Made by a program: the position numbers and the translations under genes. From Aliiglaciecola lipolytica (GTDB lineage Bacteria > Pseudomonadota > Gammaproteobacteria > Enterobacterales > Alteromonadaceae): a stretch of 64,000 nucleotides of DNA. Positions 50,806 to 62,093 of this stretch are shown here, one piece after another. The DNA is taken from NCBI RefSeq assembly GCF_018860635.1, contig NZ_JAHKPT010000021.1, positions 280,674 to 344,673 of the forward strand, written 5' to 3'. Each line of letters begins with the position of its first letter. Positions within the stretch are counted from its first letter, which is position 1. The notes beneath the pieces are model-generated. The model saw nothing but the letters and a program-made list of their open reading frames with translations, was not told the origin of the DNA and made no database searches.

Positions 50806-50832
50806 TAAAGGGATTTTTTAACCCGTCGATAC
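50806..50832 (+). promoter_or_regulatory. Sigma-28 promoter of flagellin 1
   Basis: TAAA (50806-50809), 15 bases, then GTCGATAC (50825-50832), six of eight matching GCCGATAA. It leaves a leader of roughly 120 bases before the ATG. Confidence 0.8.
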
Positions 50833-50904
50833 CCTATCTGAGAGAGCCAGTAACACCGATCTAGTTTTGACTAAGATTGATGTTCTTGAATGTGTTTTTT
50901 AACC

Positions 50905-50950
50905 ACCGATTTTTATCGGTTGCCAGCGAAACGCTGGACTGAGAGTGTAG
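50905..50950 (+). promoter_or_regulatory. Structured 5' leader of flagellin 1
   Basis: Two adjacent hairpins occur: ACCGAT-TTTT-ATCGGT (50905-50920) and CCAGCG-AAA-CGCTGG (50923-50937). They are followed by GGACTGAGAGTGTAG and the ribosome site GGAG. Exposed GGA triplets suggest CsrA-type control; this is inference. The 15-base GGACTGAGAGTGTAG recurs at 54447. Confidence 0.55.
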
Positions 50951-50960
50951 GAGATATCCC

Positions 50961-51785
50961 ATGGGATTATACGTTAACACCAACGTTTCGTCTTTGAATG
51001 CGCAACGTCAATTATTTGATTCATCTAACCGTTTAGGCACGTCTTTTGAGCGTTTGTCTTCTGGTTTCCGTATAAACCGTGCAGCGGATGATGCTGCTGG
51101 TTTGCAAATTACCGACCGTTTAACCACCCAGGTTCAAGGTCTTAACCAAGCTGTAAGAAATGCCAATGATGCGATTTCTTTAGCACAAACTGCTGAGGGC
51201 GCGTTAGGAGAAGTTACAAACTCACTTCAACGTATCCGTACTCTTGCAGTCCAATCACAAAATGGTATTAATACCTCTGCTGACCGTTTAGCACTACAAA
51301 AAGAAGTTTCAGCACTTAAAACTGAAATTTCACGTATTGCTCAAACTTCACAGTTTGCCGGTGTCGACATCCTTGATGGGGCATTTTCAGCTGCATTCCT
51401 AGTGGGTGCAAACGGTGGTCAAACTATTTCTGTTAATTTGTCTAGAACTAGTGGTTTTGGGGCTTCTGGCCTAGGTATCGCTGCTACGTCAGTTGCGAGT
51501 ATTGAATCTGCATCTGCAGCGTTAACAGAGATTACTGCTGCAATTTCAACTGTAGGAGCTGTACGTGCCGATTTAGGTGCTCTGCAAAACCGTTTCCAAT
51601 CAACTATCAGAAACTTAAGTAATATATCTGAAAATGTTGCTGGAGCTCGTTCACGTATTCGTGATACAGATTTTGCTACAGAAACTGCTGAATTGACACG
51701 TAATCAGATTATCCAACAGGCAAGTTTAACTGTTTTGTCTCAGGCTAATCAGCGTCCACAATCAGCGCTTCAGCTTCTAGGTTAA
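50961..51785 (+). CDS. Flagellin 1 (short, type A)
   Basis: The product is 274 residues, essentially only the D0 and D1 domains. [83 protein letters not shown] is the N-terminal coiled region. [46 protein letters not shown] is the C-terminal one. It is closest to flagellin 4. It has a sigma-28 promoter, a structured leader and GTAGGAG as ribosome site. Surface Ser/Thr in the central part could carry pseudaminic acid. Confidence 0.97.
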
Positions 51786-51806: not shown

Positions 51807-51884
51807 AAGCCAGGGGGTAGTGATTCTGCTTTTAATGGCCCATAACGTAGAGAGTGCGCTCTTTCCCTCCTAACGTGAGAGCGC
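51807..51884 (+). ncRNA. Structured 3' trailer of flagellin 1 with CTCCTAACGT loop
   Basis: AAGCCAGGGGGTAGTGA (51807-51823) also occurs, with one change, after flagellin 2. A hairpin GCGCTCT (51856-51862) / AGAGCGC (51878-51884) presents the loop containing CCTCCTAACGTG. The same loop with a different stem occurs after flagellin 3. It is directly followed by a terminator, as in 3'-derived small RNAs. Its function is unknown. Confidence 0.5.
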
Positions 51885-51887
51885 TTC

Positions 51888-51914
51888 GCCGACTAATTTA
51901 GTCGGCTTTTTTCT
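51888..51914 (+). terminator. Terminator after flagellin 1
   Basis: GCCGACTA (51888-51895) pairs with TAGTCGGC (51899-51906) across a 3-base loop, followed by six T. Confidence 0.92.
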
Positions 51915-51966
51915 CAACCTAACTAATTGATATTAATAGGGATAATAATTTAGCTTAAATTTATGC

Positions 51967-51994
51967 TAAAGGATTTTTCGATCCTGTTCGATAA
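51967..51994 (+). promoter_or_regulatory. Sigma-28-like promoter of flagellin 2
   Basis: TAAA (51967-51970), 16 bases, then TTCGATAA (51987-51994). The -10 part matches six of eight consensus positions. The leader to the ATG at 52150 is long, about 145 bases, and very AT-rich with (AAT)n-type runs near 52100. Confidence 0.7.
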
Positions 51995-52149
51995 AGATTC
52001 CAAGAGCGATGTACAAAATAAAAAAATAATAAGTACACGCCTAAATAAGTGACGTAATAAAACTAATAATAGCGCACTTAGAATCACCGCAAAAACCACT
52101 AATAATAATAATAGGTTTGGCGGATTGCTTAAATCGTTAGGAGAAAAAA

Positions 52150-52992
52150 ATGTCTTTATACGTCAACACAAATGTGTCGTCGTTGAATGCGAGTCGTCAG
52201 CTATTCACGTCGAACAATAATTTAAGTACAGCGTTTGAACGCTTATCTTCAGGTTTGCGCATAAACAATGCGAAAGATGATGCCGCCGGACTGCAAATCT
52301 CCAATCGACTTACCACGCAAATTCTGGGCCTTAATATGGCTGTAAGAAATGCAAATGATGGTATTTCGCTTGCGCAAACTGCAGAAGGTGCATTGGCCGA
52401 AACTACATCTGCATTGCAACGCATACGTGTATTAGCGGTGCAATCTCAAAATGGTATTAATGGATCGGCAGATCGATTAGCACTACAAAAAGAAGTAGAT
52501 GCCTTAAAACAAGAAATAAGTCGAATTGCCGCAACTTCGCAATTCGGTGGCGTTAATATTCTTGGTGGTGCCTATTCGTCCGCCTTTTTGGTGGGTGCTA
52601 ATCCAGGTCAAACTATCAGTGTCAATATCTCTAGAGCAGGTGGATACGGGACTTCCGGCTTATTCGGTTCTCAGAGTATTGAAGCAAATTTAATATCTGT
52701 TGCTACTGAGGCCGATGCGTCTCGTGCTATGACGGCTGTATTAGGTGCAATTTCTATTATCGATGCTAAACGCGCTGATTTAGGTGCGATTCAAAATAGA
52801 TTTCAATCAACTATCAGAAACTTAAGCAACATTTCAGAAAATGTTTCAGCGGCGAGATCTCGTATCCGCGATACAGACTTTGCGGCTGAAACCGCTGAAC
52901 TAACCCGCTGGCAGATAATTCAACAGGCCAGTATTACAGTGTTGGGACAAGCGAATCAACGTCCTCAAGCTGCATTGCAACTGTTGCAATAA
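52150..52992 (+). CDS. Flagellin 2 (short, type B)
   Basis: The product is 280 residues. [83 protein letters not shown] groups it with flagellin 3, not with 1 and 4. The C-terminus ends [12 protein letters not shown], with Gln as the last residue. RWQIIQQASITVLGQ near the end has Trp where the others have Asn or Ala. It has the ribosome site TAGGAG. Confidence 0.97.
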   Translation: MSLYVNTNVSSLNASRQLFTSNNNLSTAFERLSSGLRINNAKDDAAGLQISNRLTTQILGLNMAVRNANDGISLAQTAEGALAETTSALQRIRVLAVQSQNGINGSADRLALQKEVDALKQEISRIAATSQFGGVNILGGAYSSAFLVGANPGQTISVNISRAGGYGTSGLFGSQSIEANLISVATEADASRAMTAVLGAISIIDAKRADLGAIQNRFQSTIRNLSNISENVSAARSRIRDTDFAAETAELTRWQIIQQASITVLGQANQRPQAALQLLQ

Positions 52993-53195
52993 TATAAGTA
53001 GAGAAAAATCATGAAATATGATGCTGAGCAAGCAAAAGGGGCAGGCTGCAACATTGAAGATTGATTGAACAAAAGAAAACGGTCGGATTGCAAATTGTGG
53101 GGGCAGGCTGCAACCGACCGAAGAAGGAACGTTTTACTAGAACAATTAGATAACTCACGCTATGCAAAGGCGCGGGCGAATTCTCACTCCATAAT
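52993..53195 (+). ncRNA. Structured element after flagellin 2 with a duplicated 15-mer
   Basis: GGGGCAGGCTGCAAC occurs twice (53038-53052 and 53100-53114). CGGTCGG+TTGCA (53080-53092) pairs with TGCAA+CCGACCG (53109-53120) with a one-base bulge. No open frame fits. It may be part of a long flagellin 3' region, an independent small RNA or a repeat element. Confidence 0.4.
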
Positions 53196-53213
53196 AAAGC
53201 CTTAGGCTTTTTT
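53196..53213 (+). terminator. Terminator about 200 bases after flagellin 2
   Basis: AAAGCC (53196-53201) pairs with GGCTTT (53205-53210) across TTA, followed by more T. The stem is short but well placed. Confidence 0.6.
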
Positions 53214-53480
53214 AATGGGCAGTCGACTGGGCAGAAAAGAAGCCAGGAGGTAGTGAGGGGTATTGAGGTATAGGCCATCAATCCCGCCCGTCGACTTGAG
53301 CTTTCGCTCATGCTTTTTGTACAGCTTCGTCAAACGTAATTGTTTGGCAAAACTGTCAGCCATGGTAATGACTGACAATATGGATTTAGCATTATGTGTG
53401 CCAAATTTATATTTAACTGAGTTGCCTACACTTATTCTATTATAAAACTTTTGATAAACAGTAAGTTAGTTAAAGTTTAG
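53214..53480 (+). other. Second structured stretch before flagellin 3
   Basis: AGTCGAC (53221-53227) can pair with GTCGACT (53290-53296), enclosing AAGCCAGGAGGTAGTGA (53240-53256), a near copy of the flagellin 1 trailer element. A small stem TGAGC-TTTC-GCTCA (53297-53310) followed by TGCTTTTT is a second terminator-like end. Beyond it, AT-rich DNA leads to flagellin 3. No sigma-28 promoter was found there. Confidence 0.45.
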
Positions 53481-53491
53481 GAGTGTGGATA

Positions 53492-54319
53492 ATGACATTG
53501 TTTGTGAATACAAATATTTCATCAATTAATGCCAAGCGGCAATTAATTACCACCAATAATGAGTTAAGTACCGCTTTTGAACGTTTATCGTCTGGCTTTA
53601 GAATTAATGGCGCTAAAGATGATGCAGCCGGTCTGCAAATATCTAATCGTCTAACCACACAAATTTTAGGCTTGGATATGGCGGTGAGAAATGCAAATGA
53701 TGGCATTTCCTTAGCCCAGACTGCAGAAGGAGCGTTAGCAGAAAGCACGGTAGCGCTTCAACGTATAAGAGTTTTAGCCGTACAATCTCAAAATGGGATT
53801 AATAATTCAGCGGATCGCTTAGCCCTGCAAAAAGAAGTGTCGGCATTAAAAACTGAAATAAGCCGTATTGCCAGCTACAGTCAGTTCGGCGGAGTAAACT
53901 TACTCGATGGATTTTATTCTTCAAAATTTCTAGTCGGGGCCAATGCTGGTCAAACGATTAGTGTCAATATATCCCGAGAGGGTGGATATGGTATTTCGGG
54001 TTTATTTGCCGGATTTAATCTTTCGGTTGCAACAGAAGCTCAGGCTTCAGCGGCGTTAACCAGAGTAAGCCAAGCGATTTCCATTATTGATGCTAAGCGG
54101 GCTGATTTAGGGGCGATTCAAAATCGCTTTCAATCCACTATTCGTAATTTAAGTAATATATCTGAGAACGTATCAGCGGCAAGATCGCGTATTCAAGATA
54201 CAGATTTTGCCACAGAAACGGCAAGTCTTACCCGCGCACAAATTTTACAGCAAGCCAATTTAACTGTTTTGTCCCAGGCTAATCAACGGCCTCAGGCTGC
54301 ATTACAGTTGCTCGGGTAA
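53492..54319 (+). CDS. Flagellin 3 (short, type B)
   Basis: The product is 275 residues from ATG 53492, with AGGAG eight bases upstream; the frame opens at GTG 53483. [75 protein letters not shown] places it with flagellin 2. It differs from the rest in [33 protein letters not shown]. No sigma-28 promoter precedes it, so it may be expressed differently or by read-through. Confidence 0.96.
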
Positions 54320-54521
54320 TATAGAGATAATCAAATTTCTGAGGGTAGGAAATGAGAGGCCAACCCAGAGGCACATTGGAAATGTGTCTAGATAGGCCAG
54401 GGATGGCGGTGGTGTCGGCACCACCTAAATAAAAAGCCGACTAACAGGACTGAGAGTGTAGAAGTTTGGTTGAGAGGCCAGTATTCATTCTCTAACCCTG
54501 CCAGCCGGACAGAAACAGTAT
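54320..54521 (+). other. Structured trailer after flagellin 3, possible scar of a lost flagellin gene
   Basis: Hairpins at 54369-54389 (AGGCACATT/AATGTGTCT, loop GGA) and 54408-54425 (GGTGGTG-TCGG-CACCACC) are followed by AAAAAGCCGACTAA and then GGACTGAGAGTGTAG (54447-54461). The last is identical to the flagellin 1 leader. About 70 bases later comes a flagellin-1-like trailer hairpin and a terminator. A leader piece joined to a trailer piece without a gene between suggests deletion of a flagellin gene. This is inference. Confidence 0.4.
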
Positions 54522-54546
54522 TTGCTCGTACTCCTAACGTGAGCAA
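54522..54546 (+). ncRNA. Second CTCCTAACGT-loop hairpin
   Basis: TTGCTC (54522-54527) pairs with GAGCAA (54541-54546). The 13-base loop contains CTCCTAACGT, the same as in the flagellin 1 trailer at 51863-51877. The outer stem pairs differ but remain complementary. Confidence 0.5.
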
Positions 54547-54549
54547 GTT

Positions 54550-54578
54550 GGCCAGGTCATTTGATCTGGCCTTTTTTT
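54550..54578 (+). terminator. Terminator downstream of flagellin 3
   Basis: GGCCAGGTCA (54550-54559) pairs with TGATCTGGCC (54562-54571), closing on a tight loop and followed by seven T. Confidence 0.9.
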
Positions 54579-55180: not shown

Positions 55181-56005
55181 ATGGGTTTATATGTAAACAC
55201 CAATGTGTCGTCTTTGAATGCGCAGCGCCAGTTGTTTGATTCAGGACAGGCACTTAGCACATCATTTGAAAGATTGTCGTCAGGCTTTCGTATCAACCGA
55301 GCAGCAGATGATGCGGCCGGTTTACAAATCTCAGATCGTCTTACTACTCAGGTACAAGGTCTAAACCAAGCGGTACGTAATGCAAACGATGCTATTTCAC
55401 TAGCACAAACAGCTGAAGGTGCATTAGGTGAGGTTACATCATCATTGCAACGTATTCGTACTCTGGCGGTACAATCTCAAAACGGGATTAATACATCTGC
55501 TGACCGTTTAGCACTGCAAAAAGAAGTTTCTGCATTGAAAACGGAAATCTCACGTATCTCAACCGATTCACAATTCGCCGGTGTTGATATTTTGAAGGGA
55601 TCTTTCTCGGCAGCTTTCTTAGTTGGAGCAAATGGCGGACAAACTATATCCGTGAACTTATCTCGCTCTGGCGGTTACGGTTCTTCTGGTTTGAATATAG
55701 GTTCTCTTTCAGTTGCCACTATCGCAGGTGCATCTGGTGCACTAACTTCGATTGATAATGCAATATCAACAGTGGGTGCTGTGCGAGCCGATTTAGGTGC
55801 GTTGCAAAACCGTTTCCAATCAACCATTCGTAACCTTAGCAATATTTCAGAAAACATTGCCGGTGCACGTTCACGTATTCGTGATACAGACTTTGCAACG
55901 GAAACAGCTGAACTAACCCGTAATCAAATTGTTCAACAGGCCTCTTTGTCTGTGCTTAGCCAAGCAAATCAGCGACCTCAGTCGGCGTTGTCTTTGCTAG
56001 GATAA
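55181..56005 (+). CDS. Flagellin 4 (short, type A)
   Basis: The product is 274 residues, the same length as flagellin 1 and very similar to it: [75 protein letters not shown] at the N-terminus and [12 protein letters not shown] at the end. The main differences are in the central 60 residues. AGGAGG is a near-perfect ribosome site. It has the strongest sigma-28 promoter of the four, so it may be the major filament subunit. flaG follows. Confidence 0.97.
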   Translation: MGLYVNTNVSSLNAQRQLFDSGQALSTSFERLSSGFRINRAADDAAGLQISDRLTTQVQGLNQAVRNANDAISLAQTAEGALGEVTSSLQRIRTLAVQSQNGINTSADRLALQKEVSALKTEISRISTDSQFAGVDILKGSFSAAFLVGANGGQTISVNLSRSGGYGSSGLNIGSLSVATIAGASGALTSIDNAISTVGAVRADLGALQNRFQSTIRNLSNISENIAGARSRIRDTDFATETAELTRNQIVQQASLSVLSQANQRPQSALSLLG

Positions 56006-59229: not shown

Positions 59230-60231
<1,002 letters not shown>

Positions 60232-60240
60232 GGCCCAATA

Positions 60241-61404
60241 TTGAATAATCCAAATGATTTGATTCCTTACGGTAAGCACTTTGTTGATGACGACGATGTT
60301 GCTGCTGTAATTGATGTCCTGCAAAACCAATTCCTAACCCAAGGCTGTGTTGTTCCTAAATTCGAGCGAGCATTAACCGATTATACTAATGCCAAATATG
60401 CCACTGCAGTGAATAGTGGTACATCTGGACTGCATGTGGCGTGTTTAGCGCTTGGCGTTGGAAAAGGAGATGTTGTTTGGACTTCTCCCATTTCCTTTGT
60501 TGCCAGTGCAAATTGTGCTTTGTACTGTGGTGCATCAATTGATTTTGTGGACATTGATAGTGCGACGCGAAACATCAGCGTTGAAGCCCTTGAAAACAAA
60601 TTAGCAGAAGCTGCAAACGTTAATCGGTTACCCAAAGCTATTGTCGTCGTACACTTTTCTGGCGCGAGTGGCCCGATGCAAGAAATTGCAAAACTTTGTA
60701 GGCAATACAAAGTGCAGATTATTGAAGATGCGGCGCATGGTTTGGGGGGAAGTTATCAGAATTACAAAATCGGCAGTTGCCAATACTCTGATTTGGCGGT
60801 TTTGAGCTTCCATCCGGTTAAATCTATTACCACCGCTGAAGGCGGTGCTGTGCTGACAAATAATGAAGAATTGCATGAGCGCGCTAAACTGTTCGCTAAG
60901 CATGGGGTAACTCGGGATCCGAAACAAATGCAAGGGCCATCTGATGGACCTTGGTATTATCAACAAGTAGAACTCGGGTATAACTACCGCTTGAGTGATC
61001 TACACGCAGCTTTAGGCTTATCGCAACTCAAAAAATTAGACGGTTTTATTACAAAACGTCAGAATCTAGCCCATCGTTATCAAGACTTGTTGAAACATTT
61101 ACCACTAAAATTACCAGACATGGATAATGCCGATAATGGTGCCTGGCATGTTTATATGATTGAAGTTAAACAGCACGACCGAAGTGCAGTTTATAATGGG
61201 TTAATTGCACGGGGAATCGGCGTTAATGTGCATTATATCCCAATACATCTGCAGCCTTATTATCAAAAGCTTGGTTTTTCTGAGGGGGATTTCCCTAATG
61301 CAGAAGTTTATTATCAAAATGCGTTAACTTTACCTTTATTTCCTAGCATGACAGCCGATGATCAAGACAGAGTTGTGCAAGCATTAAATGAGGTATTAGC
61401 TTGA
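60241..61404 (+). CDS. pseC: UDP-4-keto-6-deoxy-sugar aminotransferase, PseC
   Basis: The product is 387 residues, starting at TTG. It is a PLP enzyme of the DegT/DnrJ/EryC1/StrS group, the second step of pseudaminate synthesis. ATAVNSGTSGLHVACLALGV, VIIEDAAHGLGGSY-type (IIEDAAHGLGG) and SFHPVKSITTAEGGAVLTN with the PLP Lys are seen. YNYRLSDLHAALGLSQL is the family C-terminal motif. Its stop overlaps the next start (TTGA). Confidence 0.95.
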   Translation: MNNPNDLIPYGKHFVDDDDVAAVIDVLQNQFLTQGCVVPKFERALTDYTNAKYATAVNSGTSGLHVACLALGVGKGDVVWTSPISFVASANCALYCGASIDFVDIDSATRNISVEALENKLAEAANVNRLPKAIVVVHFSGASGPMQEIAKLCRQYKVQIIEDAAHGLGGSYQNYKIGSCQYSDLAVLSFHPVKSITTAEGGAVLTNNEELHERAKLFAKHGVTRDPKQMQGPSDGPWYYQQVELGYNYRLSDLHAALGLSQLKKLDGFITKRQNLAHRYQDLLKHLPLKLPDMDNADNGAWHVYMIEVKQHDRSAVYNGLIARGIGVNVHYIPIHLQPYYQKLGFSEGDFPNAEVYYQNALTLPLFPSMTADDQDRVVQALNEVLA

Positions 61405-62093
61405 ATCTAGCTATCATTCCCGCACGAGGCGGAAGTAAACGTATACCGGCAAAAAATATTCGTGATTTTGCGGGCAAGCCGCTTATTGCCTATTCTATTC
61501 AAGCAGCTCAGGAAGCAAACTTGTTTGATAAAATTTGGGTATCTACAGATTCTCAAGAAGTGGCTGATATTGCGATAAAATACGGTGCAGAGGTACCTTT
61601 TCTGCGACCAGAAAATTTATCCAATGATGTCATTGGAACGCGTCCAGTGACTAATCATGGGATACAATATTGTATCGATAATTTTGAAAAACCAGAATTT
61701 TGTTGCTGTATCTATGCTACAGCGCCTTTTTTGCAAGCTGAGTATTTGCAAAAAGGTTTAGTGTCTTTGCAGCAAGATAAAGATAAATCTTTTTCTTTTG
61801 CAGTCACCAGTTTTGCATTTCCTATTCAAAGAGCTATCAGTGTTCAACAAGGTATTGTTGAACCAATGTTCAAGCAAGATATATTTAAGCGTTCACAAGA
61901 TTTAGAAGAAGCTTATCACGATGCTGGACAATTTTATTGGGGCCGAACCGATGACTATTTGTCTAAAAAAGGCATATTTTCGCAACACAGTGTGCCCATT
62001 GTTCTTCCTCGTCATTTGGTTCAAGACATTGACACCCCCGAAGATTGGCAACGTGCAGAATTGATGTATCAAGCCTACGTCAAAGGAATTTAA
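61401..62093 (+). CDS. pseF: Pseudaminic acid cytidylyltransferase, PseF
   Basis: The product is 230 residues, starting at TTG and overlapping pseC by 4 bases. It activates pseudaminic acid with CTP. LAIIPARGGSKRIPAKNIRDFAGKPLIAYSIQAA is the nucleotide-binding motif of CMP-nonulosonate synthetases. DAGQFYWG and LPRHLVQDIDTPEDW are typical of PseF rather than NeuA. Confidence 0.95.
   Translation: MNLAIIPARGGSKRIPAKNIRDFAGKPLIAYSIQAAQEANLFDKIWVSTDSQEVADIAIKYGAEVPFLRPENLSNDVIGTRPVTNHGIQYCIDNFEKPEFCCCIYATAPFLQAEYLQKGLVSLQQDKDKSFSFAVTSFAFPIQRAISVQQGIVEPMFKQDIFKRSQDLEEAYHDAGQFYWGRTDDYLSKKGIFSQHSVPIVLPRHLVQDIDTPEDWQRAELMYQAYVKGI

Follow-up and report, generated by a model that had tools for sequence, protein, structure and literature searches.

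Flagellar 3' regions are known to yield regulatory RNAs (PMC10578931, PMC11187230). FliX is a small RNA (sRNA) of Escherichia coli that comes from the 3' untranslated region (3' UTR) of fliC and is sigma28-dependent (PMC10578931), and FlmE, also called CJnc230, comes from the 3' region of flgE in Campylobacter jejuni (PMC11187230). In the latter organism flagellin mRNA is also reported to be under CsrA-FliW control (PMC4894983). The RNA AltRNa2 lies at 4.31 Mb of the genome treated in PMC4223743. Here we describe a 64,000-nucleotide (nt) stretch of the Aliiglaciecola lipolytica genome (hereafter the window), in which two genes of a tandem flagellin array, fla1 and fla3, are each followed by a hairpin whose loop carries an anti-Shine-Dalgarno (anti-SD) sequence. 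To our knowledge, how the flagellin ratio is set in these multi-flagellin marine bacteria of the Alteromonas type has not been worked out. The conserved hairpin, together with rearranged parts of the fla1 leader joined to it, hints at a so far undescribed RNA circuit for balancing the output of flagellins, and no description of these elements was found among the matches listed in searches of the open-access literature.

The present case differs from FliX and FlmE in its seed, its target sites, its fold and its relation to a leader. Like FliX, the RNA proposed here would originate in a flagellin mRNA, in its 3' UTR, and act back on flagellin, and sigma28-like promoters are present here too; FliX pairs within the coding sequences of fliC and of ribosomal proteins, however, whereas the loop described here fits the ribosome sites of sister flagellin genes (PMC10578931). 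FlmE shares the origin in the 3' region of a flagellar gene, a potential anti-SD sequence and the repression of other messages, which is proposed here. It has a single-stranded CCUU stretch between two stem-loops, is processed by RNase III and counts flgM among its targets, whereas here a near-invariant 8-nt word lies in a hairpin loop and fits GUUAGGAG of flagellin genes (PMC11187230).

Four flagellin genes assigned by Pfam stand in tandem (fla1 50961-51785, fla2 52150-52992, fla3 53492-54319, fla4 55181-56005), with flaG, fliD and fliS downstream. Judged by these flagellins, the genome belongs to the family Alteromonadaceae and is nearest to Aliiglaciecola. The decamer CTCCTAACGT occurs on the + strand, where all RNA features given below also lie, at 51867-51876 after fla1 and at 54531-54540 after fla3. 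These two copies in 64 kb compare with 0.06 expected; two copies arose in 0 of 100 shuffles, and the decamer is confined to these two sites in the whole 5.03 Mb genome. After fla1 it sits in the loop of a hairpin at 51856-51884 with the stem GCGCTCT/AGAGCGC (51856-51862 with 51878-51884), and after fla3 in that of a hairpin at 54521-54547 with the stem TTGCTC/GAGCAA (54522-54527 with 54541-54546). By sequence and fold, both hairpins lie in the 3' UTR immediately before the intrinsic terminator of the message (51888-51912 and 54550-54578, respectively), and compared with shuffled sequences the fla1 and fla3 trailers fold with z scores of -3.50 and -3.77. A preliminary description of this DNA had placed the hairpins, each followed by a terminator, at these two sites. 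It had further called the loop constant, which is true of the decamer and not of the full loops, which differ (TTCCCTCCTAACGTG and GTACTCCTAACGT).

Relatives were sampled as at least 70 loci from a flagellin protein search of named genomes and as loci L073-L097, collected with a pattern that contains the loop octamer CTCCTAAC; flagellins were re-located in all loci by tblastn, giving 283 gene copies with overlapping loci counted. Two types of trailer recur, type A after fla3 and type B after fla1. Type A consists of GCCGACTAACAGGACTGAGAGTGTAGAAG, GGTTGAGAGGCCAGT and CCTGCCAG in this order, then the hairpin and then the terminator. Copies in relatives, which the first description had led one to expect, are numerous: 63 distinct type A trailers carry the octamer hairpin, and the octamer is present in 23 of 52 fla1 trailers. 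Because the pattern that fetched L073-L097 holds the octamer, the loop count was repeated without them; the octamer stands in 44 of 45 hairpins behind a type A core in loci from the flagellin protein search only, and in 60 of 61 type A hairpins over all loci, part of which were fetched with that pattern. Over all loci, the three loop bases preceding the octamer vary among type A hairpins. Six type A core copies failed the octamer-hairpin filter, five for want of a hairpin and one (L064) for an altered loop. Type B trailers carry a motif that mimics an SD sequence, GCCAGG(A/G)GGTAGTG or a near version of it, in 47 of 52 cases (GCCAGGGGGTAGTG at 51809-51822 in the window), followed by the octamer where there is one; motif and octamer occur together in 22 of the 52, the motif without the octamer in 25 and the octamer alone in one.

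In the window the type A core spans 54436-54511, with a helix CAGG/CCTG (54445-54448 with 54497-54500), and is preceded by an upstream element GGGTAGGAAATGAGAGGCCAACCC (54343-54366) that resembles a block in the relatives compared. Of the 63 distinct trailers, 44 make up the trailer alignment (A1), rows being chosen by GGTTGAGAGGCCAG and CTCCTAAC, and in it, as in the leader alignment described below, the window sequence replaces the copy of its own genome. Paired cells amount to 97.0% in A1 and to 90.9% in its shuffles; double-sided changes are seen at 12 of 20 pairs, where shuffles give 5.6. These changes fall in the terminator (8/9 pairs), the core helix (3/4) and the hairpin stem (1/7). 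The earlier statement that the stems differ yet stay complementary therefore has to be limited to the comparison of type A with type B, since type A covariation sits in the terminator and the core helix and the type A stem is itself near-invariant. A sigma28 promoter serving the fla3 trailer separately was considered and rejected, as no sigma28-type promoter lies between stop codon and type A core in any of 75 copies, duplicates included. The type A RNA would thus derive from the parent message, in agreement with the expectation that a product of a 3' UTR has no promoter of its own. The covariance models of Rfam 15 gave a single tRNA in the window and no match to these elements; two hits of the flagellin region, with E values of 2.4 and 3.2, scored below gathering. 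The core of what the preliminary description had proposed is borne out, namely an RNA element of conserved structure that lies 3' of flagellin genes and presents an anti-SD sequence in its loop. Type A cores occur in tandem in L094 and L095, with the anti-SD hairpin on the last copy only. Seven loci of Paraglaciecola and its kin (L010, L013, L017, L019, L032, L054, L059) have an additional hairpin about 250 nt upstream of the type A hairpin, with an identical loop and a different 5' part.

The exact complement of the loop octamer, GTTAGGAG, is found upstream of 51 of the 52 flagellins directly after fla1 and of 29 of the 37 next inner flagellins. It is rare elsewhere, standing before 3 of 53 last flagellins, which serve as an internal control, and before 2 of 221 control starts taken from these loci, both fliS as judged by eye from sequence; the genomes are related, so that these counts are not independent draws. 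In the window the proposed target at fla2 is the ribosome site CGTTAGGAG (52135-52143), an exact complement of the loop over 9 nt, and that at fla3 is the ribosome site region TTTAGGAG (53476-53483), where 7 of 8 bases complement the octamer and most relatives have GTTAGGAG. Predicted pairing was ranked, for each loop, among the 40 SD-bearing starts of the window. With both loops fla2 takes the first rank (-14.4 and -14.8 kcal/mol); fla3 is third with the fla3-trailer loop, fla1 is placed 11th with the fla3-trailer loop and 15th with the fla1-trailer loop, and fla4 is 12th with the fla1-trailer loop (6 bp, -10.4 kcal/mol) and 18th with the fla3-trailer loop (5 bp, -7.7 kcal/mol). Complementarity between loop and ribosome sites had been foreseen correctly in kind. 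The best partner is fla2; fla4, which had been named as the target for its AGGAGG, fits only moderately. A 16S-like anti-SD sequence reads CUCCUUA. The loop reads CUCCUAAC instead, and so fits UUAGGAG rather than the generic UAAGGAG; fla2 is itself predicted to pair only weakly with the 16S tail (-7.3). By sequence, the loop offers a conserved unpaired seed complementary to flagellin ribosome sites, as a trans-acting sRNA from a 3' UTR would.

Structure and loop are conserved, the elements follow flagellin genes, and the matching sites are concentrated at the inner flagellins. We put the odds at about even (roughly 0.5) that the 3'-UTR module of fla1 and fla3 represses the inner flagellins by SD pairing of its anti-SD loop, probably as a short RNA. 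The fla1 and fla3 messages would end in a dedicated RNA module whose hairpin loop presents CUCCUAAC to the ribosome sites of the inner flagellins, that of fla2 above all and that of fla3 in most relatives. Pairing would hide the ribosome site and block translation of fla2, and of fla3 where the word is present, with the module acting from the 3' UTR and probably after release as a short RNA. SD occlusion represses translation, and repression is for this reason the proposed direction; if the loop blocks translation of the inner flagellins, synthesis of the fla1 and fla3 messages would limit these flagellins. It is from sequence that we infer pairing in the cell, repression, processing and action on targets. 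Such a module would be a compact conserved RNA layer visible from sequence, in which the seed of 8 nt is testable, the targets are defined and one sister gene, fla4, is without the target word.

Several observations weigh against repression by the loop. The octamer is lacking in 29 of 52 fla1 trailers, including 9 of 10 in Paraglaciecola and many in Alteromonas, and covariation is nearly absent from the stem of the fla3 hairpin. The word GTTAGGAG is absent at fla3 of the window and of its nearest relatives. Scored with the fla1-trailer loop, fla3 is only 11th of 40, one place ahead of fla4, and two non-flagellin starts come near fla2 for this loop (-13.9 and -13.6). Genome-wide, GTTAGGAG followed by ATG occurs at 10 places, against 12 for a reversed-pattern control; this lack of enrichment looks like a narrow target set and not like general anti-SD action. 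Presence of GTTAGGAG at both fla2 and fla3 could be paralogue inheritance, and fla2 keeps bases beyond the complement (AAATC ahead of the site in most loci). At one position the loop base and the target base correspond in most loci. Bowmanella and Neptunicella have the loop CTCCTAACTT and the fla2 site AAGTTAGGAG; elsewhere, two exceptions aside, the loop has G and the fla2 site C. With fla2 picked by TTAGGAG, a T at loop base 9 meets A at fla2 in 5 of 6 loci and a G meets C in 30 of 31, so that base 9 fits in 35 of 37 loci, from few changes (three in the loop, two in fla2). On the tree this co-change is not significant, with two independent pairs on supported branches and a sign test of median p 1. 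Since fla2 was picked by TTAGGAG in this comparison, the unbiased target counts are the four fractions given above for flagellins and other starts.

Beyond what the preliminary description covered, the array also has a structured fla1 leader, strands of which recur in the fla3 trailer in swapped order. A sigma28-like promoter of fla1, TAAAGGGA-N11-GTCGATAC, lies at 50806-50832 with the leader beginning just downstream, and a similar match is present in 52 of 52 relatives' fla1, 115-138 nt before the ATG, these genes being chosen by the leader word. The leader (50840-50960, in the 5' UTR) comprises a strand S2 (50840-50851) and, further downstream, a strand S1 with the SD (50936-50953). A helix P1 (50848-50851 with 50938-50941) encloses three hairpins, H1 (50852-50884), H2 (50905-50920) and H3 (50923-50937), to make a four-helix RNA. 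Over 55 distinct rows 93.6% of cells pair, with 82.6% for shuffled rows. Double-sided changes affect 15 of 21 pairs, where shuffles give 9.1, in an alignment that was fitted to the structure and leans towards it. Alignment-free single folds place a hairpin at all three positions in 59 of 61 cases by a rough positional rule. Both strands are near-invariant (GAGAGAGCCAGT in S2, CTGAGAGTGTAGGAG in S1 including the SD). As judged from these alignments, the RNA structure of the fla1 leader covaries strongly; covarying helices enclose invariant strands and the SD lies within the element, as would be the case in a riboswitch or protein-binding leader. It shares with the CsrA-FliW system the post-transcriptional control of a flagellin message, which is proposed here, and differs from it by a four-helix junction with long invariant strands in place of GGA protein sites (PMC4894983).

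The type A trailer holds S1 (GGACTGAGAGTGTAGAAG, 54447-54464) and S2 (TTGAGAGGCCAGT, 54470-54482) in the reverse of the leader order, joined to the anti-SD hairpin. S1 directly follows the CAGG helix strand in the trailer and GCTGG in the leader, and its SD, TAGGAG, is altered in trailers, mostly to TAGAAG. The leader alignment (A2) comprises 43 of 47 distinct leaders, rows being chosen by GAGAGTGTAGGAG; the S1 word is present in all 43 rows, which were chosen by that word. All 43 leaders have S2 ahead of S1, and S1 comes first in all 36 trailers (of 44) with the exact S1 word. In the genome the S1 word occurs twice, with zero one-mismatch copies, and S2 (GAGAGN1-2CCAGT) three times, twice beside S1. 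Such an order would look like a circular permutation, opened in the H3 loop and closed between the SD and S2, and we infer that leader and trailer fold alike. If so, a gene array that carries a shared RNA core at each of its two ends, in permuted order, would have an unusual layout. A UUCUA-UAGGA pseudoknot seen by eye in leader and trailer was dropped, since its register and bases vary.

Among 147 genomes of the family, the type A model (R2) matches 46 and the leader model (R1) 47. All 46 are among the 47, with one genome having the leader only; G054 (E 0.0085) and G129 (E 7.5e-5) are weak among the 46. By genus, each model matches 18 of 52. Among 197 sampled genomes of the order, the two models matched the same 6, all within the family, and in a class sample of 229 genomes, searched with the leader model only, the genome of the window was the sole match. 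Neither element was thus found outside the family in these samples, whose strict filters mean that weak distant relatives may be missed.

Leader and fla3 trailer could be two sites for one factor, a protein or small molecule, with the swapped strands folding alike; fla1 would then be controlled through its leader, and the trailer would serve as a decoy or else as a sensor by which the anti-SD loop is exposed or hidden. The rarity of the S1 and S2 words, the consistent order of the strands (S2-S1 in every leader, S1-S2 in 36 of 44 trailers) and the covariation of the leader fold and of the trailer helix CAGG/CCTG speak for a common factor, as does the match of both models to the same 46 of 147 genomes. 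This co-occurrence is confounded, however, by common descent, which explains it as well as function does. Moreover, the shared helix P1 has no double changes in either element (0/4 pairs), 14 of 44 trailers break one of these pairs, competing trailer helices (GCC/GGC and TAAC/GGTT, also without double changes) fit 98.7% of cells, and no ligand is known. We regard a common factor as rather unlikely, and would be equally tentative about its extension, in which a single signal would act on fla1 in cis and on both fla2 and fla3 in trans, through a leader that senses a ligand or protein and a permuted core joined to the anti-SD hairpin.

Less probable still is action of the loop in cis, in which a pseudoknot with the SD-like motif of its own trailer (AGGAGG for type B and TAGGA for type A) guards the message end and the ribosome-site matches are a by-product. 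The octamer in fla1 trailers almost always accompanies the motif, and A to G changes of the motif preserve G-U pairing, but many trailers keep the motif without the octamer, and the GTT of GTTAGGAG and its rarity at the last flagellin are unexplained by such a pseudoknot. It is very improbable that the trailers are plain hairpins and terminators, kept in sequence by recent descent or flagellin gene conversion. The elements occur in one family only, among the samples searched, and are tandem in L094 and L095, as this would predict; yet the terminator arms vary freely and the loop does not, so these sequences had time to diverge. CsrA, a protein known from Alteromonas, recognises GGA in loops, and the trailers might accordingly be CsrA sponges. 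The fla1 leader contains GGA, and 32 of 44 type A trailers have it at their core. For A. macleodii, a CsrA-Aln1 system has been described (PMC5864184). We nevertheless rejected the sponge as barely credible, as GGA is gone from the core in 12 of 44 type A trailers, the type B motif of the window contains AGGGGG, and the conserved loop has no GGA. Repression of inner flagellins by the loop is the reading we prefer.

Sigma28-like promoters precede fla1 and the last flagellin; a single strict pattern found RpoN-like promoters upstream of none of the inner flagellins (0/51 and 0/36). The fla2 trailer as a whole has an unusually stable fold (z -5.11). It contains an exact direct repeat of 15 nt, GGGGCAGGCTGCAAC, at 53038-53052 and 53100-53114, and an imperfect palindrome about AGTCGACT (53205-53244) near the start of a second SD-mimic motif, GCCAGGAGGTAGTG (53242-53255). 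Genes 3' of fliS (59230-62093) resemble pseB, pseC and pseF, of flagellin glycosylation. Three loci of Aestuariibacter sp. AA17 (L008, L021, L024) have extra flagellin genes with variant leaders of the fla1-leader kind.

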